Of a stretch of DNA of 64,000 bases, positions 5,463-64,000 are shown piece by piece; the stretch's first letter is position 1; each line of letters begins with the position of its first letter. Source of the stretch: Neocallimastix lanati (nom. inval.). Taxonomy: Eukaryota > Neocallimastigomycota > Neocallimastigomycetes > Neocallimastigales > Neocallimastigaceae. The notes beneath the pieces are model-generated. The model did no database searches and was not told the origin of the DNA. It was given only the letters and a program-made list of their open reading frames with translations. The position numbers were made by a program, and so were the translations under genes. The DNA is taken from assembly GCA_016946835.1 (NCBI GenBank), contig JACVTC010000045.1:1024501-1088500 (forward strand), written 5' to 3'.

Positions 5463-5530
5463 CTATTTTACAAAATTATTTTTTTAAATATTTATTTATA
5501 ATAATTTCTATAATTTTCTTTCTTTAAAAA

Positions 5531-5930
5531 ATTATAGAATTTCATGGATTTTCACAATTAATTTATTTAATCAGAAATTATTAGAAAATCATAATTTTAT
5601 AAATTCTATTATTATTTTAATCATATGATTCATTTTTATCTATTAAAATCTTTTTCTAAGAACTTTTTATACTTTTCCATTCAAAAAAATATTTTTCTTT
5701 GTGTTTTTATTTTATAAAATAAATATATAAATTATAGAATTTCATGGATTTTCACAATTAATTTATTTAATCAGAAATTATTAGAAAATCATAATTTTAT
5801 AAATTCTATTATTATTTTAATCATATGATTCATTTTTATCTATTAAAATCTTTTTCTAAGAACTTTTTATACTTTTCCATTCAAAAAAATATTTTTCTTT
5901 GTGTTTTTATTTTATAAAATAAATATATAA
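5531..5930. repeat. Perfect 200-bp tandem duplication
   Basis: The 200 bases at 5531-5730 are repeated directly at 5731-5930, and I find no mismatch reading base by base. The unit starts ATTATAGAATTTCATGG and ends AAATATATAA. It has no reading frame. Perfect identity in otherwise decayed DNA implies a very recent duplication, gene conversion or an assembly artefact. Confidence 0.97.
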
Positions 5931-5982: not shown

Positions 5983-6269
5983 TGTTAATAAACACACAAT
6001 TAAGAGACACACAATATTAAGATAAAATTATAATTATGTTTAAGTAAAGATGTTTTATATTCTTTATTATATATTAATATTTATTATTATAAATATATAT
6101 AATTAAGTATGTATGATCGTATATATATATTAAGGTTTTTTATTGTTAAAGAGATAAAAAAAAATTAGGATTATTATTTAAGCACGTTTTATAGTATTTC
6201 GAGTATTTTGTATTTGTAAAATATTGGATAATCATAGATTAAATTTTATATTAAAATATATTTTTAACA
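5983..6269 (-). repeat. 3' LTR of element A
   Basis: This 287-bp copy starts TGTTAATAAACACAC and ends TTTTTAACA on the plus strand, so sense-strand ends are TGTT...AACA. It matches 12,637-12,924 almost base for base, differing mainly by a one-base A-run change and a few substitutions, which implies recent insertion. Confidence 0.93.
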
Positions 6270-6424: not shown

Positions 6425-9226
6425 TTATTCAATTTTATTAAGAAGGGAAATTCTAAATTTATCCATTAAAGTATTGTTTAAGTATTTCGTGAATCCGTCG
6501 GCTAAATTTTCTTTAGTGTTTATGTAATTCAATTTGATTAATCCTTTATTAACAAGATCTCTAATATGATGATACCGAATATCAATGTGTTTCGACTTGG
6601 GATTAATTGACTGATTCTCACTATTATATATTGTTGCTTTATTGTCGACGAAAATTTTTACATTATTAATTTTTATTCCAAGTTCGTTTAATAAATTCTT
6701 ATACCATAATGAATGCTTTGCGCATTCGCTTAAACTATAATACTCAGCTTCGGCCGTTGAGGTAGAAACGCAATGTTGCAATTTCGAGAACCAACTGGTT
6801 GGCGTTCTTCCCATCATCATCAGGAATCCTAAAGTAGATTTTCTTGTGATTGAGTCTCCAGCGAAATCTGCGTCTACATAAACCTTAAGGTTACCTTTTT
6901 CAATTTTTATACCATAGTTTTTTGTGTACATTAAGTATCTGAATATTTTAAGAACATTATTCCAATCCTCTAAGTTAGGGTTATTGGATTTTCTTGCTGC
7001 TCTGCTCACAGCAAATAGGATATCAGGTCGGGTACAAATAGCAAGATACAATAGGTTCCCAATGGCACTTCGGTATTTCGTTTCATTAAATTTTATGCAT
7101 TTCAATTTATTGTTTTCCACTGGTATTAAATTTTTCGATGGTGTAAGTTTATTAATTTCATATTTGAATAATATATCGTTAATATATCTTATTTGATGTA
7201 AAATATAGCCATTTCTGATCTTATTAAATTTAATTCCTATAACGAATTCTACATTACCTATATCTTTAATATTAAATTTTCTTTTTATTGAATCTTTTAC
7301 AATTTTGATTTCATGATCTGTTCCCGCAATTAATATATCATCTACGTATACCGACAAAATGCATATTATTTTATTATTCCTATCTGTCTTAATATAAACG
7401 CAAGGTTCACTCTTAGCTCTTCTAAAATTTAATTTGAGAAGCTCATTATTCAATTTTTCGTTCCATTCTTTTCCAGCTTGCTTTAAGCCATAAAGGGCTT
7501 TTTTAAGCTTCCAAAAACATTTATTGAATGAATGATGACCTTCGGGAGATTTCATATATATATCTTCTTTTAAATCTGCATTAAGGTATGCAGAGTTAAT
7601 GTCTATTTGTTCGATATTAAAATTATGCTGAACAGCTATTGCTGTGATAATCCTTATTGTATCTTGTTTTAAAGTTGGAGCAAACGTTTCCTTGAAATCA
7701 ATTCCATACTGCTGCGTATAACCTTTCGCAACTAATCTTGCTTTTCTTTTTATTATATTACCGTTGGAGTCTCTTTTATATTTAAATACCCAACGTGATA
7801 ATATAACGTTAGATCCTTCTGGAACTGAATTTACAATCTGAAAAACATTTAGCTTTTCCATATTTTTTAATTCTTCATTTACGGCTTCCATCCATTGCTC
7901 TTTATCTTTAAGGTTAAATATATCTTTAAAGTTATATGGTTCTCTGAATATATTGTTTTCTTCATTTAATTTTGATATATTCTTTTCACTATATTTTATT
8001 CTTTTGTTTGATGCTTTTGCTTCATAATTAATGTTTCTTTTATTTGTATTATTGTTTGTTGTATTGTGTTGATATTGGGATATTTCAATTTTATTGTTAT
8101 TAGTATTGTTTAATTTATTTACGTAATTAATTGTACTTTCCATATTAGATTCTGCAGTTGTATTTTTATTAGGAATATTATCATTATTTTTATTAAGATT
8201 ATTGGTAATATTATTGTCATTAAATTCATTATTTCTATAGTTTCTTGTATTAGTGTTGCAAATATTATTGTTGTTTAATTTATTATTATTATTGATTGAT
8301 GAATCATTGATATAGATATTACTTTTATTATTAGTGTTATTTTTATTGTTATTATTGAAAGTATTATTACTAGTATTGTTAATGTTGTTTTCATTATTGA
8401 TGTTGATATTATTTGAAGTAATGTTGTCATTTCCTGAATTATTATTATCTTCTGGATTATCATTTTTATTTTGTTTTTGTTTTTTATAAGTTTTATGTTT
8501 ATTTTTATTTCTTAAAATATTGCTATTATATTGTGAATCGTTAATATTATTATAGTTGTTTTGATAGTTGTGATTGTTGTTGTTGTATTTTTGATAATTA
8601 TAATTGTTATAATTATTGTTTGAAAAATTTTTGACAGAGTAATCATTCACCCTGAATTCGTTATTGGAATTATAGTTTAGTAAGACTGAATTTCCAGGAT
8701 CGTTTTCAAAAAATTGGACAGTTCGAGATAGCACGATTTTATTGTTGGTTAAATCAAGGATTTTATAAGATGATGGGTTATTGCAATATCCTAAGAAAAT
8801 TCCAGGGTGTGAATTATTATCAAATTTGGATCGTAATTCTTTTGGTATAAAGAAAAATACTCTGCATCCAAAAACTCTAAATATGCTGTAATCAACAGAT
8901 TTATTATATAGAATCTCAAATGGTACTTTATTGTTTATACCCTGATGGGGTAAACGATTGTGAATATAATTTACTGTATCGACAGCAAATTCCCAAAAAT
9001 TATGAGAAAGTTTTGATTCATTTAGTAGAGCTTTTGCGGAAGATATAAGTATGCCGTTGAATCGTTCAGCTTTCCCGTTTTGAGCAGGATTATATGGTAT
9101 AGTGTATTGATGTATTATACCATTATTTTGACAGAATATTTTGAAATTATTATTAAAAAATTCCCTTCCATTATCTGATCGAATATTTTTGATTTTAATG
9201 CTGAATGTGTTTAAAACTTCTTTGTA
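6425..9226 (-). pseudogene. Copia integrase core, Asn-rich linker, reverse transcriptase and RNase H (element A)
   Basis: This frame is open from just after the TAA at 9227-9229 to the end of pol. The first part holds the integrase second Asp (RSDNGREFF near 9180) and catalytic Glu (GKAERFNGI near 9065), then the C-terminal block ending SRTVQFF near 8720. A linker of roughly 250 residues, dominated by Asn, follows. RT begins near 7900 (SRWVFKYKRDSNG, KARLVAKGYTQQYG) and has YVDDILIAG near 7340. RNase H has VYVDADFAGD near 6880, STAEAEYYSLSECAK near 6740 and KHIDIRYHHIRD near 6580. An ATG at 8734 opens a 769-codon frame, but this is an internal Met and not the natural start. RT and RNase H look complete. 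Confidence 0.9.
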
Positions 9227-9229
9227 TTA

Positions 9230-10371
9230 AATAATGAATTTATTAAATGTTTCATTTTTATGTTGTAGGAATAAGACCCAGCCATATCTAGAAAAGTTAT
9301 CCAGGATTGTGAGGAAGTATATATTTTTATTTAAGGATGGCATTACGTGGCCCACTAAATCAAGACGTATAAGTTGAAAATGTGTTTTGTTTTATTAATT
9401 GATCTTTTGAAAGGTTTGTTCCTTAATTTTGAATTGGAACATATTTGACATTTGTGATTTGTATTTGTATTAGTATTTTTTAAATTATCTTTTTTTTTAG
9501 TAATGTCGAAATGACCCAGGCGTCTATGCCAAAGATCAAAATCTTGTTTATTGTTGATATGTGTTGAATTAATTTCATTTAAATTTTCGAAATTATTGTT
9601 CTTATGAAAAATGGATGGTGCTTTTGATAAATATATTTTAAATATATTTTTATTGTCTGCTGCTGATTGATATATTCTATTACCTTTGTCGTCATAGATG
9701 ATTGCGATTTGTGAGTTTTTATAGTTATTGAAAACAATTTTATAATTTTGTTTTATTAATTGATTAATTGATATTAAATTTTTCTTGATAAATTTAGAAT
9801 AATGAACGTTCTTTAAAATAAATTTATGATTGTTTATATATGCGTTGAAATCACCAATGTAGTTAGCATATGTTTCCTTTCCATTGTCAAGAGATATTTT
9901 TATTTTTTCTTTTCTGATGTTTGATAATATATTAATGTTATTTGTTACATTAATTGAGGCACCGGAATCCAGAATCCATTGTGTAATATTATTATTGTTG
10001 CTTCTTATATCAATTTTTGTTGGCTTGTTAATCTCTAAACTGTTTAATTCAAAACAGTTGTCTGAGTTATAATCTCTTGAGAAGTCTTCTTGGTAGTTTT
10101 CATTATAATCCTTTTTATCGTTTAATAGATATGCATGACCTTCTCTTGGTTTTTCTTTGTTGAATTTTTTTGTATTACCTTTTCTTTTATATTGTTTGTT
10201 GTTTCTTTTGTTTTTATTGAATTTGTTTTTTAAGCAGTCTTTTCGGTAGTGTCCGAACTTTCCACAAAGGTAGCATTTTCCATTTTTTCTTTTCTTGTAT
10301 TTTATTTTCTTAGGTTTAGAGATTTTTCGTCCATTTTCTAAACTAAGTATATTCTTCTGATTTTGTTCGAT
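9230..10371 (-). pseudogene. Copia gag C-terminus, zinc knuckle, protease and integrase N-terminus (element A, broken)
   Basis: Downstream of a TAA stop this segment reads through the CCHC knuckle CYLCGKFGHYRKDC near 10,275, a basic stretch, the protease motif WILDSGASINVT near 9975 and the integrase zinc-binding start (LWHRRLGHFD near 9520). Compared with element B, one base is lost near 9375 (TTTTCAACTT against TTTTCGAACTT), which shifts the frame just before the first integrase Asp. A Trp codon has also become TAA at 9227-9229. Catalytic residues of the protease are intact. Confidence 0.85.
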
Positions 10372-11130
10372 TTAAGCTGTTTCCCTTATATTGGAGAAAA
10401 CAATATCAGGTATTATCCTTTTGACATAGTCGTAGCATTTTGTCCAATTATTATTGTATTGGAAAACATTAATGAATCTAATGTTTTCAGGGAGAGCTCG
10501 ATTTAAAATACCGACCTTAACATTGTCGTTAATATCGGAGTCTATTCTTTCCAATTCATCCAGGAGATTTTGTAAGACAGCTAAGAAAATATGGACATCA
10601 TCTTCTAAATTATATTTCAATTTATTAATTTTGTCTTTCAGGACCATTTTTCTTTGTTCAGGTCCTATGGTAAAAGACTTGTTAAGTAGTTCCCATAATT
10701 GGAAGGCCGTTTTGCTTTGACTTTCCAATATTTTCTTGGTGTTCTCACCAAGATTATTTGTTATGATCCATTTTACTAATATGTCATTTTTAATATCTTT
10801 TTCGCTTGTTCCGATTTCGTACACAAGGGAATTATCGAATTTATCAATCGTATATTTTTCAATGCTTTCTGTTATATCTCTCCTTCTTATCTTTTTCACT
10901 TTTTCATGACTTATGTAGTCATCGAGGTTATTAATACAAAGGAGATAAAGGATATTTGTTTTCCAGTTAACAAAGTTATCTGTTGTCAATTCCGTAATAT
11001 GGTTAAAGTTTTCACTGTAGTTAAAAATGAACCCCTTTTGTGTGGGTTCATATTCACTGATGTTTATTATTTGGTCTTGGGTAGAATTGATACTATTTCT
11101 AGAATTACTTCTTAAGTTATTTCTGCTCAT
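10372..11130 (-). CDS. Copia gag N-terminal part (element A)
   Basis: A 252-codon frame starts with ATG at 11,130, just after the hairpin-array leader, and ends at a TAA where element B has TTA (Leu). The protein has the layout of copia gag: a FNYSENFNHITELTTDNF segment near residue 35 and FQLWELLNKSFT near residue 143, matching the UBN2/retrotran_gag region, then LPENIRFINVFQYNNNW near residue 215. The zinc knuckle lies beyond the stop. The same start is used in B (55,690), supporting it. It would give a capsid fragment without nucleic-acid-binding tail. Confidence 0.85.
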   Translation of the reverse strand: MSRNNLRSNSRNSINSTQDQIINISEYEPTQKGFIFNYSENFNHITELTTDNFVNWKTNILYLLCINNLDDYISHEKVKKIRRRDITESIEKYTIDKFDNSLVYEIGTSEKDIKNDILVKWIITNNLGENTKKILESQSKTAFQLWELLNKSFTIGPEQRKMVLKDKINKLKYNLEDDVHIFLAVLQNLLDELERIDSDINDNVKVGILNRALPENIRFINVFQYNNNWTKCYDYVKRIIPDIVFSNIRETA

Positions 11131-11923
11131 GTTAGTTTAATTCCAAAAAAAAAATGTTATTATGAATTATAATTGCTTATTAATTATTTTATTACTTTCT
11201 TTAAATAATTTTGAAGAGTAAAAAAAAATATAATTTGAGTTTATTTATATTTCTAAAAAGTACTATTTGAATTCATAAAATATCAATTTTGCTTTAAAAA
11301 AAAATATTGGTTATTATTTTTAGAAACATGATTTATTTCAATATTTTGTTTGGTTGATGATTTATTAAATTAATATATATAATTGGAACATTAAGAAAAT
11401 TTTTATTTATATATGAAGTGATTAATCAGATGACATCTGTATATTTTGTTTATATTAAACATGATCAATATATTATCAATAAATTAATATTAATAAAATT
11501 GTATTGTCGTTATTATTTTATTAATATTTTCTTTGTTATAGTATTGATCATTTGTTTATTTTAATTATGAAAAAATAGTTATTTGATTGTCATGTTTATA
11601 TTTTATTATTATTGTTAGTTTATATAAAAAAATCTAACTATTAGTGAGTTGTTTATAAAAATATTTTAAATTTTTATTATGATATTTGTTTATATTAAAA
11701 GTGATTTATATATTTTGTGATTTGACCAATTTTATATTATTATTTATTTATTGTATAACCTTTAATTTGAATTATGTTTATTTATATTTTAATTTATTGT
11801 ATTTTGTAGAGTTAGTATTATTGACGTTTTATTTATTATTATTTTTATATGAATGTCTGACATTATAATTTTAAAATTAGTTTATAGAAAAGAAATTGAC
11901 TTTATTATTATATTTTTTTAGTA
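11131..11923 (-). other. 5' leader of element A, AT-rich part
   Basis: This non-coding stretch lies between the gag start and the hairpin array, and it is closely matched by 54,900-55,689 in element B. No conserved reading frame is convincing, although a 60-codon frame occurs in both copies on the antisense strand (11,686-11,868 and 54,954-55,136). Confidence 0.6.
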
Positions 11924-12300
11924 TTCAGCTTATATACTTTATAGCTGACTTAATTTTATTTAATTTATTATAAATTACATGGCTGACCTTTTAAATAATT
12001 TATTGATATTCAGCTCATGTCTTTGATAGCTGACTTTTTATTCAGCTTATGAATTAAATAGCTGACTTAATAATTGTGCTCAGCCTATGTATTTGATGGC
12101 TGACTTTTTATTTTTTATTCAGCTTATAAATTAAATAGCTGACTTTATTAAGTTATAGTACTCAGCTTATACTTTTGATAGCTGACATCTTATCTTCTTA
12201 TTCAGCTTATAGCTTAAATAGCTGACTCTATTGATTATAGTATTCAGCTTATATTTTTGATAGCTGACTCTTTTTTTTATCTTTTATTCAGCTTATAAGT
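11924..12300 (-). repeat. Array of short hairpin units in the leader of element A
   Basis: About eight full units of the form TCAGCTTAT, 6-8 variable bases, ATAGCTGAC, plus two half units, are spaced by 8-30 bases. In each the TCAGCT and AGCTGA ends pair into a 6-7 bp stem. Spacers alternate between a ...TTTGATAGCTGAC type and an ...AAATAGCTGAC type, so the array has grown as dimers. One unit (near 12,081-12,104) has TCAGCC...GGCTGA, a T:A pair changed to C:G on both sides. Element B has the same array at 54,600-54,896 with about one dimer fewer. Confidence 0.9.
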
Positions 12301-12606
12301 TTTTGATTTTACTGTCAATTTCTATTTAAATTTTTAAAACTATAATTTAATTTTATTTTTGATTAATCGGCTCCTTATATTATCTTATTATTTTAATAAC
12401 TCGTATGAAATTATTTTTTAATGTTTTTGTTTAGAATTGGATATTTTGTTGAATTATTATTATTTTATATATTATTATTAATTTTATTTTATTTATTATT
12501 ATTTAAAATAAATGAAAAAAAAAATAAATTAGTATGAATTTATATTTATTTGTCTTAAATAAGTATATATATTACTGTAGCTATTAATAGTTAACTTTCA
12601 TTCTAT
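12301..12606 (-). other. Leader of element A between primer site and hairpin array
   Basis: AT-rich, no reading frame. It is matched in element B at 54,285-54,599. Confidence 0.6.
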
Positions 12607-12636
12607 CTCAATCGTTTGAGATTGAGACTCTTAATC
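12607..12636 (-). promoter_or_regulatory. Primer binding site of element A, matching a half tRNA-Lys(CUU)
   Basis: Directly next to the 5' LTR the plus strand reads CTCAATCG, then TTTGAGAT, then TGAGACTCTTAATC. Compared with the usual eukaryotic tRNA-Lys(CUU), recalled from general knowledge, this follows the D arm through the anticodon stem and loop (GACTCTTAATC) at about 25 of 30 positions. The element's RNA would pair with an internal part of the tRNA, so the primer would be a 5' half-tRNA ending at about position 39-40. Drosophila copia does this with initiator tRNA-Met. Confidence 0.75.
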
Positions 12637-12924
12637 TGTTAATAAACACACAATTAAGAGACACACAATATTAAGATAATATTATAATTATGTTTAAGTA
12701 AAGATGTTTTATATTCTTTATTATATATTAATATTTATTATTATAAATATATTTAATTAAGTATGTATGATCGTATATATATATTAAGGTTTTTTATTGT
12801 TAAAGAGATAAAAAAAAAATTAGGATTATTATTTAAGCACGTTTTATAGTATTTCGAGTATTTTGTATTTGTAAAATATTGGATAATCATAGATTAAATT
12901 TTATATTAAAATATATTTTTAACA
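12637..12924 (-). repeat. 5' LTR of element A
   Basis: This 288-bp copy has the same ends as the 3' LTR (TGTT...AACA) and adjoins the primer site. It should hold the promoter, but no TATA box can be singled out in so AT-rich a sequence. Confidence 0.93.
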
Positions 12925-16895: not shown

Positions 16896-17133
16896 TATTA
16901 AGCACCAAAAACAAATATTGAGAAAATTAGATATATTTTTAGAGAAGCATTTTATATATAATACTTAATATTTAATTTTATTTATCTTTTATTTTTTATA
17001 TTTACAAAAGTGTATGTTTTTGACAAGGTTACATTTTATTTCTTTTATAATTTTATTTAAATAAAATAATATTCTGATTGGGTAAATTATATTAAAGTCA
17101 TTATTAAGTATTTATTTTTTTTATATTCTAACA
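16896..17133 (-). repeat. 3' LTR of element C
   Basis: This 238-bp copy reads TATTAAGCACC...TATTCTAACA on the plus strand, so sense ends are TGTTAGAA...TTAATA. The sense 3' end is TA and not the usual CA. The boundary is fixed by the target duplication. Confidence 0.88.
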
Positions 17134-22930: not shown

Positions 22931-22956
22931 GGTTAAGCTCAGTTGTAGACTTAATC
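22931..22956 (-). promoter_or_regulatory. Primer binding site of element C, with 8-bp deletion
   Basis: The plus strand reads GGTTAAGCTCAGTTGTAGAC then TTAATC at the LTR edge. C' has the same site with GAGACTCT inserted before TAATC. The missing bases are those matching the anticodon stem and loop of tRNA-Lys(CUU), so primer pairing in C should be crippled. Confidence 0.75.
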
Positions 22957-23193
22957 TATTAAACACCAAAAAAAAATATTGAGAAAATTAGATATATTTT
23001 TAGAGAAGAATTTTATATATAATACTTAATATTTAATTTTATTTATCTTTATTTTTTTATATTTACAAAAGTGTATATTTTTGACAAGGTTACATTTTAT
23101 TTCTTTTATAATTTTATTTAAATATAATAATATTCTGATTGGGTAAATTATATTAAAGTCATTATTAAGTATTTATTTTTTTATATTCTAACA
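22957..23193 (-). repeat. 5' LTR of element C
   Basis: A 237-bp copy with sense ends TGTTAGAA...TTTAATA, nearly identical to the 3' LTR. Confidence 0.88.
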
Positions 23194-24888: not shown

Positions 24889-25128
24889 TATTAAACACCA
24901 AAAACAAATATTGAGAAAATTAGATATATTTTTAGAATAACATTTTATATATAATACTTAATATTTAATTTTATTTATCTTTATTTTTTATAATTACAAA
25001 AGTGTATGTTTTTGACAAGGTTACATTTTATTTCTTTTATAATTTTATTTAAATAAAATAATATTCTGATTGGGTAAATTATATTAAAGTCATTATTAAG
25101 TATTTATTTTTTTTTTTATATTCTAACA
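24889..25128 (-). repeat. 3' LTR of element C'
   Basis: A 240-bp copy reading TATTAAACACC...TTCTAACA on the plus strand; sense ends TGTTAGAA...TTTAATA, again with TA at the 3' end. The AGGAGGAA polypurine tract adjoins it at 25,129-25,136. Confidence 0.88.
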
Positions 25129-30108: not shown

Positions 30109-30142
30109 GGTTAAGCTCAGTTGTAGACTGAGACTCTTAATC
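30109..30142 (-). promoter_or_regulatory. Primer binding site of element C', matching a half tRNA-Lys(CUU)
   Basis: The plus strand reads GGTTAAGCTCAGTTGTAGAC then TGAGACTCTTAATC, ending at the LTR edge. The generic tRNA-Lys(CUU) has TAGCTCAGTCGGTAGAGCA then TGAGACTCTTAATC, so D arm and anticodon arm match with two or three small gaps. As in A/B, the primer would be a 5' tRNA half cut in the anticodon region. Confidence 0.8.
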
Positions 30143-30384
30143 TATTAAACACCAAAAACAAATATTGAGAAAATTAGATATATTTTTAGAATAACATTTT
30201 ATATATAATACTTAATATTTAATTTTATTTATCTTTATTTTTTATAATTACAAAAGTGTATGTATTTTTAACAAGGTTACATTTTATTTCTTTTATAATT
30301 TTATTTAAATATAATAATATTCTGATTGGGTAAAATATATTAAAGTCATTATTAAGTATTTATTTTTTTTTTTATATTCTAACA
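30143..30384 (-). repeat. 5' LTR of element C'
   Basis: A 242-bp copy with the same TGTTAGAA...TTTAATA ends as the 3' LTR. Confidence 0.88.
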
Positions 30385-39500: not shown

Positions 39501-40480
39501 TTAAATTTTCTGGTCTTGGCCACTCTTTTATAGATTTAATTTTCTTTGGGTCAATGGATAAACCATCAACAAATAAAATGTAACCTTAAAAATTCGACTT
39601 GATTCTGGTAAAACTCACATTTTTCTAATTTTGCATATAAATTATTATTAATTAAAGTTTAAAGGACGTTTCTGACTTGAATATGATGCTCTTCCAAATC
39701 TTTGGAATAAATAAAATATCATCTAAATATAAGATTACACATTTTTCCAAGTATGGTGTAAGAATAGAGTTAATAAATGATTGGAAAGTGGCAGGGTCAT
39801 TTTTTAAACCAAACGGCATAACTAAATATTCGTAATGATAATATTTAGTTCTAAACGCAGTTTCATATTCGTCTCCTTCTTTAATTCTTATTAAATTATA
39901 AGCAGAATGTAAATTCCATATTGTAAAATATTTTGCTCCCTTTACTTTTTCTATTATATCTGTTATTAAAGGGAGAGGATATGAATTTCTTATATTTACT
40001 GCATTTAATTTTATATAGTCCACACATAACCGAAGGGAGTCATCTTTTTTCTTTTGGAAAAGGACAGGATATCCAGCAGGTGATTCTGATGGTCTAATAT
40101 AAATCCTTTTTCGAAATTTTCTTTTATATAATCCTTTAGAACTTGTGATTCTTCTTAAGTTAATGGATAAATAGGGCCGTAATAAAATGTAGCGTCTTTT
40201 TCTAAAACAATCTTACTGTCGGTTAAACGGTGAGGAGGTAATTTATCTGCTTCTTTTTTTTTTCCTAAATATGATTGCTAAATCTTGATATTGATAAGGA
40301 ATTTCTTCTATTTTTGGATCCTCATTTTCAAAATTAATTTTATCTTTCATTGAAAGAAAACAATATATTAAAAAATTATAACTAAATTCCTTTTTATTAT
40401 TATATAAATCTCGATGATTTATATAATAATAAGTTGGTAATATACTCGTAGCCAGCTTGCCCACTTGCTCAGGCGTCATG
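39501..40480 (-). pseudogene. Gypsy reverse transcriptase (broken)
   Basis: The frame 40,243-40,479 encodes the entry region (IPYQYQDLAIIFRKKK) with ADKLPPHRPTD-like wording following in another frame. The frame 39,652-40,023 has [39 protein letters not shown] and ILYLDDILF with the catalytic [11 protein letters not shown] usually reads LKNAPATFQ. Frameshifts separate the parts and the thumb runs out near 39,650. Confidence 0.85.
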
Positions 40481-53963: not shown

Positions 53964-54254
53964 TGTTAAAAATATATTTTAATATAAAATTTAATCTATG
54001 ATTATCCAATATTTTACAAATACAAAATACTCGAAATACTATAAAACGTGCTTAAATAATAATCCTAATTTTTTTTCTTTTCTCTTTAACAATAAAAAAC
54101 CTTAATATATATATATACAATCATACATACTTAATTATATATATTTATAATAATAAATATTAATATATAATAAAGAATATAAAACATCTTTACTTAAACA
54201 TAATTATAATATTATCATAATATTGTGTGTCTCTTAATTGTGTGTTTATTAACA
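53964..54254 (+). repeat. 5' LTR of element B
   Basis: A 291-bp LTR, TGTTAAAAATATATTTT...TTATTAACA, matching the element A LTRs in reverse complement. Confidence 0.92.
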
Positions 54255-54284
54255 GATTAAGAGTCTCAATCTCAACCGATTGAG
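54255..54284 (+). promoter_or_regulatory. Primer binding site of element B, matching a half tRNA-Lys(CUU)
   Basis: GATTAAGAGTCTCA followed by ATCTCAACCGATTGAG adjoins the LTR. Its reverse complement matches the generic tRNA-Lys(CUU) D-arm-to-anticodon stretch at about 26 of 30 positions, one better than A because the CGG of the D loop is kept. Confidence 0.78.
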
Positions 54285-54599
54285 ATAGAATGAAAGTTAA
54301 GTATTAATAGCTACAGTAATATATATACTTATTTAAGACAAATAAATATAAATTCATACTAATTTATTTTTTTTCATTTATTTTAAATAATAAAAAATAA
54401 AATAAAATTAATAATAATATACAAAATAATAATAATTCAACAAAATATCCAATTCTAAACAAAAACATTAAAAATAATTTCATACGAGTTATTAAAATAA
54501 TATGATAATATAAGGAGCCGATTAATCAAAAATAAAATTAAATTATAGTTTTAAAAGTTTAAATAGAAATTGACAGTAAAATCAAAAAAAAAAATTTAT

Positions 54600-54896
54600 A
54601 AACTGAATAAAAGATAAAAAAAAAAGAGTCAGCTATCAAAAATATAAGCTGAATACTATAATCAATAGAGTCAGCTATTTAAACTATAAGCTGAATAAGA
54701 AGATAAGATGTCAGCTATCAAAAGTATAAGCTGAGACTATAACTAAATAAAGTCAGCTATTTAATTCATAAGCTGAATAAAAAAGTCAGCTATCAAAGAC
54801 ATGAGCTGAATATCAATAAATTATTTAAAAGGTCAGCCATGTAATTTATAATAAATTAAATAAAATTAAGTCAGCTATCAAGTATATAAGCTGAAT
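54600..54896 (+). repeat. Array of short hairpin units in the leader of element B
   Basis: Six full TCAGCTAT...ATAAGCTGA units and two half units, alternating between spacer types ATCAAA and TTTAA as in element A. About one dimer is missing relative to A. The half unit with GTCAGCCATG is kept. Confidence 0.88.
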
Positions 54897-55689
54897 ACTA
54901 AAAAAAAAAATAAATAATAAAGTCAATTTCTTTTCTATAAACTAATTTTAAAATTATAATGTCAGACATTCATATAAAAATAATAATAAATAAAACGTCA
55001 ATAATACTAACTCTACAAAATACAATAAGTTAAAATATAAATAAACATAATTCAAATTAAAGGTTATACAATAAATAAATAATAATATAAAATTGGTCAA
55101 ATCACAAAATAAATAAATCACTTTTAATATAAACAAATATCATAATAAAAATTTAAAATATTTTTATAAACAACTCACCAATAGTTAGTTTTTTAATATA
55201 AACTAACAATAATAATAAAATATAAACATGACAATCAAATAACTATTTTTTCATAATTAAAATCAACAAATGATCAATACTATAACAAAGAAAATATTAA
55301 TAAAATAATAACGACAATATAATTTTATTAGTATTAATTTATTTATAATATATTGATCATGTTTAATATAAACAAAATATACAGATGTCATCTGATTAAT
55401 CACTTCATATATAAATAAAAATTTTCTTAACGTTCCAATTATATATATTAATTTAATAAATCATCAACCAAACAAAATATTGAAATAAATCATGTTTCTA
55501 AAAATAATAACCAATATTTTTTTTTAAAGCAAAATTGATATTTTATGAATTCAAATAGTACTTTTTAGAAATATAAATAAACTCAAATTATATTTTTTTA
55601 CTTTTCAAAATTATTTAAAGAAAGTAATAAAATAATTAATAAGCAATTATAATTCATAATAACATTTTTTTTTTCGGAATTAAACTAAT
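54897..55689 (+). other. 5' leader of element B, AT-rich part
   Basis: Non-coding, matching 11,131-11,923 of element A in reverse complement. Confidence 0.6.
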
Positions 55690-57372
55690 ATGAGCAGAAA
55701 TAACTTAAGAAGTAATTCTAGAAATAGTATCAATTCTACCCAAGACCAAATAATAAACATCAGTGAATATGAACCCACACAAAAGGGGTTCACTTTTAAC
55801 TACAGTGAAAACTTTAACCATATTACGGAATTGACAACAGATAACTTTGTTAACTGGAAAACAAATATCCTTTATCTCCTTTGTATTAATAACCTCGATG
55901 ACTACATAAGTCATGAAAAAGTGAAAAAGATAAGAAGGAGAGATATAACAGAAAGCATTGAAAAATATACGATTGATAAATTCGATAATTCCCTTGTGTA
56001 CGAAATCGGAACAAGCGAAAAAGATATTAAAAATGACATATTAGTAAAAAGGATCATAACTAATAATCTTGGTGAGAACACCAAGAAAATATTGGAAAGT
56101 CAAAGCAAAACGGCCTTCCAATTATGGGAACTACTTAACAAGTCTTTTACCATAGGACCTGAACAAAGAAAAATGGTCCTGAAAGACAAAATTAATAAAT
56201 TGAAATATAATTTAGAAGATGATGTCCATATTTTCTTAGCTGTCTTACAAAATCTCCTGGATGAATTGGAAAGAATAGACTCCGATATTAATGACAATGT
56301 TAAGGTCGGTATTTTAAATCGAGCTCTCCCTGAAAACATTAGATTCATTAATGTTTTCCAGTACAATAATAATTGGACAAAATGCTATAACTATGTCAAA
56401 AGGATAATACCTGATATTGTTTTCTCCAATATCAGGGAAACAGCTTTAATCGAACAAAATCCGAAGAATATATTTAGTTTAGAAAATGGACGAAAAATCT
56501 ATAAACCTAAGAAAATAAAATACAAGAAAAGAAAAAATGGAAAATGCTACCTTTGTGGAAAGTTCGGACACTACCGAAAAGACTGCTTAAAAAACAAGTA
56601 CAATAAAAACAAAAGAAACAACAAACAACATAAAAGAAAAGGTAATACAAAAAAATTCAACAAAGAAAAACCAAGAGAAGGTCATGCATATCTATTAAAC
56701 GATAAAAAGGATTATAATGAAAACTACCAAGTAGACTTCTCAAGAGATTATAACTCAGACAACTGTTTTGAATTAAACAGTTTAGAGATTAACAAACCAA
56801 CAAAAATTGATATAAGAAGCAACAATAATAATATTACACAATGGATTCTGGATTCCGGTGCCTCAATTAATGTAACAAATAACATTAATATATTATCAAA
56901 CATCAGAAAAGAAAAAATAAAAATATCTCTTGCCAATGGAAAGGAAACATATGCTAACTACATTGGTGATTTCAACGCATATATAAACAATCATAAATTT
57001 ATTTTAAAGAACGTTCATTATTCTAAATTTATTAAGAAAAATTTAATATCAATCAATCAATTAATAACACAAAATTATAAAATTGTTTTCAATAACTATA
57101 AAAACTCACAAATCGCAATCATCTATGACGACAAAGGTAATAGAATATATCAATCAGCAGCAGACAATAAAAATATATTTAAAATATATTTATCAAAAGC
57201 ACCATCCATTTTTCATAAGAATAATAATTTCGAAAATTTAAAGGAAATTAATTCAACACATATCAACAATAAACAAGATTTTGATCTCTGGCATAGACGC
57301 CTGGGTCATTTCGACATTACTAAAATAAAAGATAATTTAAAAAATACTAATACAAATACAAATCACAAATGA
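55690..57372 (+). CDS. Copia gag, protease and integrase start (element B)
   Basis: A 560-codon frame starting MSRNNLRSNSRNSINST at 55,690, the same start as in A. In order: gag core (FNYSENFNHITELTTDNF near residue 35; AFQLWELLNKSFT near 142), LPENIRFINVFQYNNNW near 215, CCHC knuckle CYLCGKFGHYRKDC near 285, Lys/Asn-rich stretch, protease WILDSGASINVT near 385 with its Asp intact, and the integrase histidine motif LWHRRLGHFD near 538. It ends at TGA (57,370-57,372) where A has TGC, the first Cys of the integrase zinc motif. Gag and protease appear complete and could be made from this frame. Confidence 0.92.
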   Translation: MSRNNLRSNSRNSINSTQDQIINISEYEPTQKGFTFNYSENFNHITELTTDNFVNWKTNILYLLCINNLDDYISHEKVKKIRRRDITESIEKYTIDKFDNSLVYEIGTSEKDIKNDILVKRIITNNLGENTKKILESQSKTAFQLWELLNKSFTIGPEQRKMVLKDKINKLKYNLEDDVHIFLAVLQNLLDELERIDSDINDNVKVGILNRALPENIRFINVFQYNNNWTKCYNYVKRIIPDIVFSNIRETALIEQNPKNIFSLENGRKIYKPKKIKYKKRKNGKCYLCGKFGHYRKDCLKNKYNKNKRNNKQHKRKGNTKKFNKEKPREGHAYLLNDKKDYNENYQVDFSRDYNSDNCFELNSLEINKPTKIDIRSNNNNITQWILDSGASINVTNNINILSNIRKEKIKISLANGKETYANYIGDFNAYINNHKFILKNVHYSKFIKKNLISINQLITQNYKIVFNNYKNSQIAIIYDDKGNRIYQSAADNKNIFKIYLSKAPSIFHKNNNFENLKEINSTHINNKQDFDLWHRRLGHFDITKIKDNLKNTNTNTNHK

Positions 57373-58338
57373 CAAATATGTTCCAATTCAAAATTAAGGA
57401 ACGAACCTTTCAAAAGATCAATTAATAAAACAAAACACATTTTCGAACTTATACATCTTGATTTAGTGGGCCCCGTATTGCCATCCTTAAATAAGAATAT
57501 ATACTTCCTCACAATCCTGGATGACTTTTCTAGATATGGCTGGGTCTTATTCCTACAACATAAAAATGAAACATTTAATAAATTCATTATTTGGTACAAA
57601 GAAGTTTTAAACACATTCAACATTAAAATCAAAAATATTCGATCAGATAATGGAAGGGAATTTTTTAATAATAATTTTAAAATATTCTGTCAAAATAATG
57701 GTATAATACATCAATACACTATACCATATAATCCAGCTCAAAACGGGAAAGCTGAACGATTCAACGGCATACTTATATCTTCCGCAAAAGCTCTACTAAA
57801 TGAATCAAAACTTTCTCATAATTTTTGGGAATTTGCTGTCGATACAGTAAATTATATTCACAATCGTTTACCCTATCAGGGTATAAACAATAAAGTACCA
57901 TTTGAGATTCTATATAATAAACCTGTTGATTACAGCATATTTAGAGTTTTTGGATGTAGAGTATTTTTCTTTATACCAAAAGAACTACGATCCAAATTTG
58001 ATAATAATTCACACCCTGGAATTTTCTTAGGATATTGCAATAACCCATCATCTTATAAAATCCTTGATTTAACCAACAATAAAATCATGCTATCTCGAAC
58101 TGTCCAATTTTTTGAAAACGATCCTGGAAATTCAGTCTTACTAAACTATAATTCCAATAACGAATTCAGGGTGAATGATTACTCTGTCAAAAATTTTTCA
58201 AACAATAATTATAACAATTATAATTATCAAAAATACAACAACAACAATCACAACTATCAAAACAACTATAATAATATTAACGATTCACAATATAATAGCA
58301 ATATTTTAAGAAATAAAAATAAACATAAAACTTATTAA
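57373..58338 (+). pseudogene. Copia integrase (element B)
   Basis: The frame continues after the TGA. HLDLVGPVLPS near 57,450 has the first Asp, RSDNGREFFNNNF near 57,640 the second, and GKAERFNGILISS near 57,750 the catalytic Glu. FRVFGCRVFFFIPKELRSKF near 57,940 and LSRTVQFFENDPGN near 58,095 are the C-terminal blocks. It stops at TAA (58,336-58,338) in the Asn-rich linker, where A has AAA. The ATG at 57,466 is internal, after the first Asp, and is not a real start. Confidence 0.9.
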
Positions 58339-59340
58339 AAACAAAAACAAAATAAAAATGATAATCCTGAAGATAATAATAATTCAGAAAATGACAACAT
58401 TACTTCAAATAATATCAACATCAATAATGAAAACAACATTAACAATACTAGTAATAACACTTTCAATAATAATAATAAAAATAACACTAATAATAAAAGT
58501 AATATCTATATCAATGATTCATCAATCAATAATAATAATAAATTAAACAACAATAATATTTGCAACACTAATACAAGAAACTATAGAAATAATGAATTTA
58601 ATGACAATAATATTACCAATAATCTTAATAAAAATAATGATAATATTCCTAATAAAAATACAACTGAAGAATCTAATATGGAAAGTACAATTAATTACGT
58701 AAATAAATTGAACAATACTAATAACAATAAAATTGAAATATCCCACTATCAACACAATACAACAAACAATAATACAAATAAAAGAAACATTAATTATGAA
58801 GCAAAAGCATCAAGCAAAAGAATAAAATATAGTGAAAAGAATATATCAAAATTAAATGAAGAAAACAATATATTCAGAGAACCATATAACTTTAAAGATA
58901 TATTTAACCTTAAAGATAAAGAGCAATGGATGGAAGCCGTAAATGAAGAATTAAAAAATATGGAAAAGCTAAATGTTTTTCAGATTGTAAATTCAGTTCC
59001 AGAAGGATCTAACGTTATATCATCACGTTGGGTATTTAAATATAAAAGAGACTCAAACGGTAATATAATAAAAAGAAAAGCAAGATTAGTTGCGAAAGGT
59101 TATACGCAGCAGTATGGAATTGATTTCAATGAAACGTTTGCTCCAACTTTAAAACAAGATGCAATAAGGATTATCACAGCAATAGCTGTTCAGCATAATT
59201 TTAATATCGAACAAATAGACATTAACTCTGCATACCTTAATGCAGATTTAAAAGAAGATATACATATGAAATCTCCCGAAGGTCATCATTCATTCAATAA
59301 ATGTTTTTGGAAGCTTAAAAAAGCCCTTTATGGCTTAAAA
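58339..59340 (+). pseudogene. Asn-rich linker and reverse transcriptase N-half (element B)
   Basis: The linker runs to about 58,860. RT then has SRWVFKYKRDSNG near 59,020, KARLVAKGYTQQYG near 59,075, NETFAPTLKQDAIR near 59,128 and INSAYLNADLKEDIHMKSPE near 59,220. The frame is lost at LYGLK (about 59,336) through an extra A compared with element A. Confidence 0.88.
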
Positions 59341-59993
59341 ACAAGCTGGAAAAGAATGGAACGAAAAATTGAATAATGAGCTTCTCAAATTAAATTTTAG
59401 AAGAGCTAAGAGTGAACCTTGCGTTTATATTAAGACAGATAGGAATAATAAAATAATATGCATTTTGTCGGTATACGTAGATGATATATTAATTGCGGGA
59501 ACAGATCATGAAATCAAAATTGTAAAAGATTCAATAAAAAGAAAATTTAATATTAAAGATATAGGTAATGTAGAATTCGTTATAGGAATTAAATTTAATA
59601 AGATAAGAAATTGCTATATTTTACATCAAATAAGATATATTAACAATATATTATTCAAATATGAAATTAATAAACTTACACCATCGAAAAATTTAATACC
59701 AGTGAATAACAATAAATTGAAATGCATAAAATTTAATGAAACGAAATACCGAAGTGCCATTGGGAACCTATTGTATCTTGCTATTTGTAGCCGACCTGAT
59801 ATCCTATTTGCTGTGAGCAGAGCAGCAAGAAAATCCAATAACCCTAACTTAGAGGATTGGAATAATGTTCTTAAAATATTCAGATACTTAATGTACACAA
59901 AAAACTATGGTATAAAAATTGAAAAAGGTATTAACCTTAAGGTTTATGTAGACGCAGATTTCGCTGGAGACTCAATCACAAGAAAATCTACTG
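59341..59993 (+). pseudogene. Reverse transcriptase C-half and truncated RNase H (element B)
   Basis: In the shifted frame RT continues with CVYIKTDRNNK, the catalytic YVDDILIAG near 59,475 and YRSAIGNLLYLAICSRPDIL near 59,748. RNase H begins KVYVDADFAGDSITRKST near 59,940 and is cut there. A further insertion (KGINLKV where A has KGNLKV) keeps the frame. The last codons of this open frame (ELLVMFY) belong to the next sequence. Confidence 0.88.
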
Positions 59994-61960
59994 AGCTATT
60001 GGTGATGTTCTACTAGGAATCTGCAAAACTGAATATAGAATATTTGTTAAAAATAATGAAAAATATGAATTTACTAAGAGGGATGACCGGAAAAAAAAAC
60101 ACAAATAATATACTTCGTACAAAGAAAAAGGTCGAGAAGAATCGCAGTGAAAAGGAAAAATTAATAATAATGACAGATAAAGGAAACTTCAAAAGTCCTA
60201 GCAGGATCTTTTCAAGAAATAGCAATTATCTAGCTTTTACAATGCTGTTAAGGGAAGTTCCAAATCTAACCAGAGAAGTATCAGAAAATTTTGTTATTCT
60301 CAATGGAACAGTCAACGACTCTATTGATTCAAGCAAATATAAGGAAATTTTAATTTTTCTGGATCCGTGTTCTAATATAAATTTTATACTTCCAAAATTA
60401 GTTCAAGAACTAATAATTAATGTAAAAAAAAAATTTATATTAGTGGAGGTAAAAGTGAAAAAGCCAACCCCACATACCATAACTAACCAGATATATGTCA
60501 ATATTCCTTTCGTCGTGAAGGGCTCCAATAATAAAAAAGCCCAGTCATTAGCATTTACTACTCGCTTTAACATATTAGATCACTTTGAAAATACTATACA
60601 TCTACGACAAATTTCTAAGAAAAGTATAAAATTTACAGCAATTACTATTATCAGGGAAAACAGACCACAAAAATAGCCCAATCGATAAAAAATCATTTAG
60701 ACTGCTCTTCGGAAAAGAAGATTTACCTGATTACCATTGCTATTAACGAAGAACTAAATTTGAAAGAACTTATAAAGGACAATATGAGTTATTTATTAAA
60801 TCAATAAGTCTATTGTAACAAGATGTACTCAACTCTGGTCAACGAAAATCAACTTCATTCAGATTCTCTACAACTACCCTCCGGAAATTCTTCAGGATAA
60901 ACTTTGTCCAATGAAAATTATTCTCAGCCAGAATCAAAATGACTACCCTACGGGAATTCTTTAGGCATTAATTTAGCCAGAAATAATATTCTTAGGCCAC
61001 ATAGTGCAAGACAACCTTACAGTAGAAGTTCGTGACGTCGTTACGTTATTAGTACTGCAGTATGTACTAAAGGATCAATACCTTCAGAAGACTTAGAATT
61101 AATTATTAAAGAATTAAAAAAGAATATTGTTCTGTTTGAATTGAAACCTAAAACGAAAATTTGGCCAATACTCTACCCAAGCATAGGCTATATGATTGTG
61201 ATATATGGTTGTAGGAAGGAACAACTTTTTTTCACTATCCAATTTACCCTACATCCAAAGATGAGGACAAAAAAATACAAAAATATCTAGACAACCTAGC
61301 CAATAGATTCATAGGAAGATCAATCTCCAGCTGTACTCCTGGCCCTATTTTCAAGGAAGAAAAATGGGAATTTCGCCTATGTATTGACTACTAAAAACTA
61401 AATCAGCAAACCTTACAGAATACCTAGTTACTTCGCTAATTACCATTGTTTTCGAGGCCATGAAAGACTCAAAAAATTTTAATAGGTTTGAGATAAAAGT
61501 ACTAATAATTTTAAATATATCTAAAAAGGCGACGAATTTAAAACCTCCTTTCGTATCAAATATGAACATTTTGAATACATCGTGACTCCTTTTCTGCTCA
61601 CTAACGCTCCTGAAGTTACTGTTTTCGGTGATGTAATTAACAAGAAATTTCATGTATATTTGGACGATATTATTGTCAATTCAAAAAAATTCGAAGAACA
61701 TGTTAAGTAGGTAGAAACTGTCATACAACAGCAAATAGACAGCAAGTTTGTAGTAAAAATTTCCAAGTGCGAATTTAACAAGCTTGAAGTGAAATTCCTT
61801 GACCACATTATTAGTAGTGAAAGAATTAAGACAGACCTTCACAAGCTTGAATCTATTACTTCCTGAACAACTTCTACCAATATCAAAGAAGACCAATCAT
61901 TAATAGGGTTCTGTAATTATTATCATCTTTTTATCAAAGTCTTCTCCAGGAATACTTATT
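59994..61960 (+). pseudogene. Ty3/gypsy protease-RT remnant
   Basis: The frame 60,044-60,676 is protease-like: EILIFLDPCSNINFILPKL near residue 105 has D-P-C-S-N at the active site and INFI as the following strand. RT follows in broken frames: WEFRLCIDY near 61,367, FEYIVTPFLLTNAP near 61,572, and FHVYLDDIIVNSKKFEEHV near 61,650 with the catalytic DD. KISKCEFNKLEVKFLDHII near 61,758 and SLIGFCNYYHLFIK near 61,895 are the RT thumb and connection. Gag and the parts after RT are missing. It is joined without a visible boundary element to the cut end of element B. Confidence 0.78.
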
Positions 61961-62189
61961 AGAAAAACAAAAACAAATACCATTGATAAAAATTCAGTCA
62001 AAACTACTGAATCTTCATTAGTTAACAATAAGAAAATAGATTCTAAAAGTAAAGTTTCTGATATAAATATAATTAAACACCATAATCGTTAGCGTTTTAC
62101 AAGCCATAATAAAACAAAAATTTTAATAATAATATTAGATATTATTCTGAATTTATAAATGTAAAATTTCGTTTATTCAACTTTTAGAA

Positions 62190-63640
62190 ATTTTTCTGAA
62201 ATTAAGATCCAAATTAGATAAATATTTAAAATTGGAAAAATTAAAAATTTCAAATTCAATTGACTTTTATAATTTTATTCTCCATTATGATATTTCTAAT
62301 TATAATAATCATAAATTCAAAGAAGATGACTTGGGCATAGTTATGGTTTCCATTGATAACCTGGAAAATAAATTATTAGTTGTTACTGGAAGTAATACAA
62401 ATTTTATTTTCAGTGATTATTCTAATAAATTACCCAGTAAATACGATACTATTGGTAGCTGCCTTGGGTGTATTTATGAGGCTTTAACTGATGATACTAT
62501 CAGGGTTTCTATAGTAGTCTAACTTTTCATTAGTATTAATAATTCTTTAATATCTAATTTTTGTATTACAATTAATACTTTTAATAAATTTAATTAACTA
62601 TTAGGTATTAAAACAATTGTTAACTATTATTTCTTTATATGTTCTATTTCTAAATTAATATATCGTTTAAATTCTCTTTCTTAGCTTGATGTTATTAAAT
62701 CTTTATTTGAAGATGAAAATTTAGAATATATATCTTATTTTATTTTATTTATTGGTGAAAATAAATCTATTTACTTTTTTAAATTTTAATAATCAAATTA
62801 TTACGTTAATAAAATAGATAATGCTAGAAAAATTGTGCCTCAAATTGAAAATATTCAAATTAATAAAAGTATGATATAAACTATTATACCACAGGAAGTA
62901 AATCTTTCTCTTATAGAGTACATCTAATCTAAAGATTTTCTGAAAACAATTAAATGTACTTTTAAATTAAATATTTTTAAACATTTAATAAATGTTACTG
63001 ACATCGTTGCCACTTCTACTAAACAACTTTCTCTATTCAAAATGAGATCCAACCATATTCATTTATTTAAAAACGGTGTTCCTTTTAAAATTAGATTTTA
63101 TATACATAATTGACTAAAGTCTAATTCTTTAAATTTGAACTGATTAAACTTATCAATAAAAGTTTAATTATTCCATCTTATTCTACTTGGTCTTCATCAA
63201 TTATCCCTGCTATGAAAAATAATGGAAAATGGAAACTTTGCACTGATTAAAGAAAACTGAACTCAATGACTGTTCCTGATTCGTATTCTTTTCCTAACAT
63301 TGATTTTTAATTCCTTCGGTGGTGCTATAATTTTCTCTATATTAAATTTATTTTCAAATATGTATATTGAAGATAATATTAATTTTACCAGTTTTACCAC
63401 AAAATTTGGAAATTTTGTATACAAAGTTATGGCATTTGATCTTAAAGGTGCTTCAGTCACATTTCAGAAAGAAATGAATCATATTAGTTTTGGTTTATTA
63501 GGTAAATGTATTTTTGTTTTCATCTGAAGATATTTTAGTATTTTCTAACTCTATCGAAGAACATATTGTACGTTTTAAATAAATTTTCGAAATATTTCTT
63601 AAATATGATGTTAAAATCAACATTTAAAAATGTTGTTTCT
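62190..63640 (+). pseudogene. Second Ty3/gypsy protease-RT remnant
   Basis: A 96-codon frame (62,232-62,522) contains LLVVTGSNTNFIFSDY, a retropepsin motif (usually D-T-G-S-N-T-N-F) with Val in place of the catalytic Asp. RT follows in fragments: NGKWKLCTD near 63,222, NFTSFTTKFGNFVYKVMAFD near 63,380, KGASVTFQKEMNHISFGLLG near 63,445, and after a slip near 63,523 EDILVFSNSIEEHI, the YxDD region with Y-I lost. The wording differs from the 60-kb remnant, so this is another gypsy family. Stops and frameshifts are frequent. Confidence 0.72.
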
Positions 63641-64000
63641 TCAGAAAGGAGGTAGAACTACTCTATTTTATAAGAAATCTCGATTTAATGAACTTTCATT
63701 AAACCAAGATTTCTATGAAACTGTTTTTATGAATAAATGTATATATAATGAGAATTTCATTCATAAAAAAGCAATTTTTCTTTATAATTTTATTAATTAA
63801 TTTTTAAAAAAAATAAGCAATTTGAAATATTAAACTTACTGATTAATAAAAAATAATTTTTACTTTATATTCTAATAAATTAATAAAATATCTTTAATAA
63901 TAAAATAAATTATTTATTATTTAGTGTTAACATATTAAGTGTAACTTTTAAATTACATATATTAAAATTTATTTAGATTGTATTTACATAATGAATAATA
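63641..64000. other. Gene-free AT-rich interval to window end
   Basis: No gene is seen. A loose inverted repeat (GAAATCTCGATTTAATGAAC near 63,683 and TTCATTAAACCAAGATTTC near 63,695) overlaps itself as a hairpin. Confidence 0.45.

Follow-up and report, generated by a model that had tools for sequence, protein, structure and literature searches.

Copia elements and their probable primer sites in the window

The window analysed here is a 64,000-nucleotide stretch of the Neocallimastix lanati genome (contig JACVTC010000045.1, positions 1,024,501 to 1,088,500; 79.6% A+T), drawn from a source genome of 199 Mb in 762 contigs. It carries long terminal repeat (LTR) retrotransposons of two families, A/B and C, whose primer-binding site (PBS) is the complement of positions 27-40 in the anticodon arm of host tRNA-Lys(CUU), and ends inside that arm at the LTR with zero gap.

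Element A reads on the minus strand. Its LTRs are equal in 285 of 288 aligned columns, and the same 5-bp target repeat, AATAG, stands to the right of the 5' LTR (12637..12924, TG..CA) and to the left of the 3' LTR (5983..6269). Directly adjoining the 5' LTR is the PBS core (12623..12636), which in tRNA sense, on the plus strand, reads TGAGACTCTTAATC, identical to tRNA-Lys(CUU) positions 27-40. Beyond it, at 12603..12622 (plus strand), lies a D-arm-like extension that matches tRNA positions 7-26 in 15 of 20 places, the mismatches falling at positions 10, 19, 21, 25 and 26. The complete site in tRNA sense is CTATCTCAATCGTTTGAGATTGAGACTCTTAATC, followed by the LTR; positions 7-40 of the tRNA-Lys(CUU) gene are CTAGCTCAATCGGTAGAGCGTGAGACTCTTAATC. 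Element B is 97.8% alike over 5.4 kb in opposite orientation, the match running to 59992. Its 5' LTR (53964..54254, plus strand) is followed by the complement of tRNA positions 40-27 (54255..54268) and then by the complement of positions 26-7 (54269..54288, 16/20); no 3' LTR is found for it within the window (54255-64000).

Compared with tRNA positions 7-40, the sites score 29/34 in A (12603-12636) and 30/34 in B (54255-54288), and the third-best place on either strand of the window reaches 20/34. In 200 first-order Markov windows, used as the null with the window scored on both strands, the top score is 22/34, attained in 5 of the 200. The first-pass annotation, made from the window alone, had counted 25/30 and 26/30 over a shorter span; the host gene yields 26/30 and 27/30. 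It had also reported no match to the acceptor end, and this agrees with a best score of 20/38 anywhere in the window for the 3' part of tRNA-Lys(CUU) plus GCCA, with no 3'-end match adjoining A or B. Priming of A and B by the 3' end of this tRNA, the one tRNA covered by the comparison, is rejected on that score.

Family C comprises elements C1 (16896-23193) and C2 (24889-30384), both on the minus strand, with LTRs of the form TG..TA (the LTR 3' ends of the two families thus differ, CA in A and TA in C). In C2, the 5' LTR (30143..30384) adjoins a core that matches the tRNA at 14 of 14 positions (30129..30142, plus strand in tRNA sense), and the 3' LTR (24889..25128) shows a 5-bp flanking repeat, AATAA. 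In C1, the 5' LTR (22957..23193) is neighboured by a PBS region ending at 22956, and the 3' LTR (16896..17133) is flanked like its partner by ATTATTAT, a 5-bp ATTAT repeat within simple sequence. The C1 PBS region (22945-22956) is missing 8 nt that C2 has. The 14-nt core of A and B is common to a second family in the same window.

Both families are of the Ty1/copia type: they have gag and RVT_2 domains of that type, integrase before reverse transcriptase, and a 5-bp target repeat around an LTR pair in A and C2 (likewise in C1, though in simple sequence). The domain scan of A gives, on the minus strand, a Retrotran_gag_2 piece (10375..11136), a zinc knuckle and Pol_BBD piece with gag_pre-integrs below cut-off (9358..10371), and a piece with SH3_retrovirus, part of rve below cut-off, and RVT_2 (6428..9226), in which SH3_retrovirus and rve precede RVT_2. 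In C1, an open reading frame (ORF) with rve/SH3 lies upstream of the RVT_2 ORF, and Retrotran_gag_2 and RVT_2 are above cut-off in C1 as in A. The reverse transcriptase part of A has 7,534 database matches; among the best 120, top identity is up to 99%, three carry names of the Orpsp1_1 type at 60, 63 and 45% identity, which we take to denote Orpinomyces sp. C1A, an anaerobic gut fungus, and the other named ones are mostly from plants at about 31-38%. Judged from these mobile-element proteins, the host probably belongs to the anaerobic gut fungi, Neocallimastigomycota.

The host tRNA and genome-wide recurrence of the site

The search word GACTCTTAATC occurs at 2,074 genomic places, against 26 for its reversed form. 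At 75 of these the sequence continues like a tRNA gene; 73 share one tRNA-Lys sequence, and 29 were read as loci. ARAGORN calls tRNA-Lys(CUU) in all nine loci given to it, and Rfam finds a tRNA in seven of seven; a host tRNA with this D-arm and anticodon sequence does exist. The window itself yields no Rfam match. On smaller contigs (L009-L038; C94, C160, C188, C251, C252 and others), the tRNA-Lys(CUU) genes form arrays in which the orientation alternates and the spacing is often about 5.5 kb; tRNA genes for Ile, Lys(UUU), Asn, Val, Ser, Asp, Gln and others accompany them.

The 15-mer TGAGACTCTTAATCT (tRNA positions 27-41) is present at 1,860 places in the 199-Mb genome, its reversed form at none; with up to one mismatch, the counts are 2,452 and 8. 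If all 73 genes carry the 15-mer as the 29 read do, subtraction leaves about 1,790 places that are not tRNA genes and are candidate PBSs, the count of likely PBSs among them covering the sampled rows. Corresponding halves of other tRNAs are rejected: that of tRNA-Lys(UUU) has 59 places against 1,860, and these may include genes or mutated PBSs, and that of tRNA-iMet is at most marginal, with 55 places for positions 27-39 against 53 for positions 29-41, i.e. about two at most that are not gene-like. A search of viral contigs for relatives gave 54 pattern stretches and no confirmed case.

The recurrence was described on the first 100 listed GACTCTTAATC places (contigs C1-C10) plus locus L012, which is not a random sample of the genome. 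With rows of fewer than 34 upstream bases removed, 103 rows gave 92 distinct ones; one more was removed for too little downstream sequence, and the remaining 91 fell into 55 greedy clusters. The search word fixes tRNA positions 30-40 and leaves positions 27-29 free. These three match in 53, 50 and 54 of the 55 clusters, position 26 in two, position 41, where the LTR starts, in 50, and position 42 in one. A full core followed by T is seen in 80 of the 91 rows (47 of 55 clusters); the remaining rows may represent decayed sites or chance occurrences of the word. TT follows the core in 18 of the 91 rows, so some LTRs may have AA as their end. Families whose flanks are unlike one another have the core in the same place, at the end of the LTR. 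Tandem duplication of the PBS with the LTR end next to it is seen at two loci (L002:1501-1585 and L048), the copies lying 74 and 77 bp apart.

Placement beside copia genes and in non-autonomous copies

The placement sample consists of nine RVT_2 matches on contigs C1-C9 and C12 (to 505 kb), where the site lists are complete, taken from the best 150 of 2,891 candidates scored best first. Upstream of eight of the nine, at 2.7-5.3 kb, lies a site in the expected orientation, for which the chance expectation is about 0.04 each. For the ninth, on contig C2, the nearest such site is 11.2 kb off. The interval contains two copies of a perfect direct repeat (at least 656 bp, spaced by 5.86 kb) around a 1,570-aa ORF (L134:3289-9801); this looks like an LTR-type element nested in the copia element, and the distance falls to about 4.7 kb once the insertion is subtracted. 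Pieces of copia gag or Pol_BBD also lie downstream of the site at L004, L005 and L008. A second LTR was found in none of eight 3-kb loci (L001, L002, L004-L008 and L012).

Short copies carry the site as well. Locus L133 holds an element of 2,005 bp whose two 196-bp LTRs are identical; the core adjoins the LTR, ATGAT flanks the element at both ends, and the interior has no ORF of 120 codons. As in A, C1 and C2, the LTR pair with flanking repeats defines the junction of PBS and LTR. The identity of its LTRs suggests recent movement, and hence this type of PBS probably worked recently.

The other end of the same tRNA may be used differently. Its 3' end with CCA, which the 29 tRNA-Lys(CUU) genes read do not encode, occurs at 61 exact places and at six with one mismatch. 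The single place inspected of the 61 (L131) lies next to two ORFs, one of 406 aa that has no Pfam match and one of 1,273 aa in which RVT_1 and RNase H precede the integrase domains, as is the order in Ty3/gypsy. This suggests that one tRNA serves two superfamilies via different ends.

Proposed priming by a half tRNA

The site is best read as the PBS of Ty1/copia elements that would start minus-strand DNA from the 5' half of tRNA-Lys(CUU), and we give this reading a probability of about 0.9. The first-pass annotation had proposed such priming for A and B, and the host tRNA, the core spanning the anticodon and the position at the LTR end all favour it. Since the core includes the anticodon CUU, tRNA-Lys(CUU) is the sole isoacceptor expected to fit all 14 nt.

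The PBS touches the LTR, so the first copied base would be the LTR end, and the last base of the primer would be C40 (or U41, for LTRs whose final base is A). Accordingly, the cut in the tRNA would fall after C40 and before U41, in the 3' strand of the anticodon stem, and the resulting half would carry a 3'-OH that can be extended. Positions 27-40 would be released from the stem and paired with the 14-nt PBS; in some families the D arm would pair too, out to position 7. Reverse transcriptase would then extend C40 directly into U5, which would explain why PBS and LTR adjoin without a gap. The earlier description of the match as running from the D arm to the anticodon loop holds for the D arm; the match ends at position 40, in the 3' strand of the anticodon stem. 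Its proposal of a cut in the loop gives way likewise to a cut 3' of position 40, within the stem. Stress-type nucleases cut in the anticodon loop and leave a cyclic phosphate; the primer nuclease must leave a 3'-OH, which argues against enzymes of that type. RNase P would be the obvious candidate by its reported role in Ty5.

For the 60-nt leader paired with tRNA positions 1-40, the predicted energy is -38.7 kcal/mol in A, -44.0 in B and -36.3 in C2; the lowest values among 200 mononucleotide shuffles, the null used also for D-arm words and leader complementarity, are -22.6, -23.1 and -27.1 kcal/mol. As read from the letters, the mismatches of A and B at positions 10 and 25 exchange a D-stem G-C for T-A, so that the D arm can still fold. 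N2-dimethyl-G26 is common in eukaryotic tRNAs, and the end of pairing at position 27 could reflect it. G is depleted at position 26, standing there in two of the 55 clusters (P 0.012), a weak test because the clusters share ancestry.

Several observations weigh against this reading or limit it. The half tRNA, its nuclease and the priming step itself are what we infer from sequence, and for LTRs whose final base is A, the two possible primer ends, C40 and U41, are indistinguishable. Invariance of positions 30-40 across clusters is a product of how the search was built, and the 55 clusters share ancestry to some degree. Three of the nine RVT_2 matches also have one site within 8 kb in an unexpected place, at least one such misplaced site being the PBS of a neighbouring copy. 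Coding regions of A and C are interrupted, four of eight ORF pieces scanned from L002-L008 have no Pfam match, and L001 lacks any ORF of 90 codons. The damaged PBS of C1 pairs at -18.5 kcal/mol, inside its shuffles (minimum -21.5). The D-arm match is confined to a minority: an identical 6-nt word with tRNA positions 1-26 occurs in 13 of 55 clusters (shuffle mean 4.6%, maximum 12.7%).

Alternative explanations

Element RNA might fold back on the PBS and a piece cut from it serve as primer, as in Tf1. The leader beside the PBS is indeed complementary to it over at least 6 nt in 22 of 55 clusters, above the shuffle maximum (mean 10.8%, maximum 25% in 300); the L133 PBS is enclosed in a 9-bp hairpin, and the A leader alone forms a 9-bp hairpin that includes part of the PBS, which pairs with U5 instead when U5 is added. 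On the LTR side, complements of at least 6 nt occur in nine of 55 clusters (shuffle mean 8%, maximum 20%), an excess that is not clear. A self-primer must, however, pair with the LTR-proximal bases of the PBS. The word GATTAAG is found in the leader of one of 55 clusters, the complement of the first 10 PBS bases in none of four 5' LTRs (A, B, C2 and L133), and the longest PBS complements in these LTRs are 8, 8, 6 and 8 nt, against shuffle maxima of 8-9. Across the four LTRs and 55 leaders, the complementarity to LTR-proximal PBS bases that Tf1-like priming calls for is thus not seen, and the core corresponds to the anticodon arm of a tRNA, anticodon CUU included, so self-priming appears very unlikely. 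Folding of the leader over the PBS may act as a switch.

That intact tRNA-Lys(CUU) binds through its D arm and anticodon arm solely in order to be packaged, with another primer starting synthesis, has a precedent of sorts in the split primer sites described for Ty1 and Ty3 (PMC5371799). It is nevertheless extremely improbable here: the site touches the LTR exactly where a primer 3' end must sit, and the tRNA 3' end finds no match beside A or B, its window best lying elsewhere. The tRNA-like stretch of roughly 30 nt in A and B might also be taken for the relic of a tRNA-Lys gene, or for a tRNA-derived short interspersed nuclear element, that landed beside an LTR. Recurrence at LTR ends contradicts this, since in most rows the match goes no further than position 40, where an LTR-like sequence starts, position 42 matches in a single cluster, the flanks differ and the site is placed upstream of copia reverse transcriptase; such an origin is barely conceivable. 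Half-tRNA priming by tRNA-Lys(CUU) remains the reading that we prefer.

Relation to known systems

Half-tRNA priming is known mainly with tRNA-iMet; in Drosophila copia, the tRNA-iMet half is cut at 39/40, and Ty5 is likewise a copia-type element. The present site resembles Drosophila copia, for which a half-tRNA primer is described (PMC5371799), in calling for a 5' half cut in the anticodon arm, and differs from it in the tRNA, Lys(CUU) instead of iMet, and in an end that would lie one base later, at position 40. For Ty5 of Saccharomyces, the 3' end of the tRNA-iMet primer is described as arising from internal cleavage in the anticodon region, with an RNase P cut in the anticodon loop (PMC5371799). 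Cleavage inside the tRNA would be shared here; the tRNA is again different, and the cut would lie in the stem, not the loop. In plants, half-tRNA PBSs are described in copia elements only, with half tRNA-Ile in Bianca and half tRNA-Met in Osser, Bryco and part of Gymco-II (PMC6317226); the present elements share the half-tRNA PBS in copia and differ in using tRNA-Lys(CUU).

The closest counterpart is FunCo1, a fungal copia clade almost restricted to Pezizomycotina, with two copies in Lipomyces, whose PBS ATTAAGAGTCT is described as complementary to an internal tRNA-Lys region (PMC5445492). At the present site, tRNA positions 29-39 have this word as their complement, and it is contained in the core complement of A, B and C2. 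The passages of that paper on the site speak of a classical PBS, with no half tRNA or cut (PMC5445492). Here the host is an anaerobic fungus and the match comprises 14 nt from position 40; the two are likened by PBS alone. This kind of PBS is thus already known from FunCo1, and what is new is an unusually large instance of it. Together with FunCo1, the present elements suggest a wide distribution or an old origin of half-tRNA-Lys use among fungal copia elements. The open-licence PubMed Central papers searched yielded no report of half-tRNA PBSs in anaerobic fungi.

Well over 1,000 places fitting one tRNA-Lys half make the nuclease question testable: among small RNAs, a 5' piece of tRNA-Lys(CUU) with its end at position 40 should be conspicuous. 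Annotation tools that scan tRNA 3' ends alone would be expected to miss such sites. A wider picture, tentative and as a whole rather doubtful, is that nearly all copia elements of this genome (dozens of families, gene-less elements among them) depend on the 1-40 half of tRNA-Lys(CUU) while Ty3/gypsy takes the intact 3' end. In that picture, PBS pairing with positions 27-40 may open the stem and set the cut, dimethylation of G26 may block further pairing, and families would differ in using D-arm pairing or a PBS fold-over switch.

Other features of the window

Near the 3' LTR of A lies a perfect 200-bp tandem duplication (5529-5928). The leaders between PBS and gag contain short repeated motifs, read by eye: TCAGCTTAT and AGCTGACT in A (11920-12300), and their complements in B (54590-54900). 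An ORF at 39655-40212 carries an RVT_1 reverse transcriptase domain of a non-copia type.
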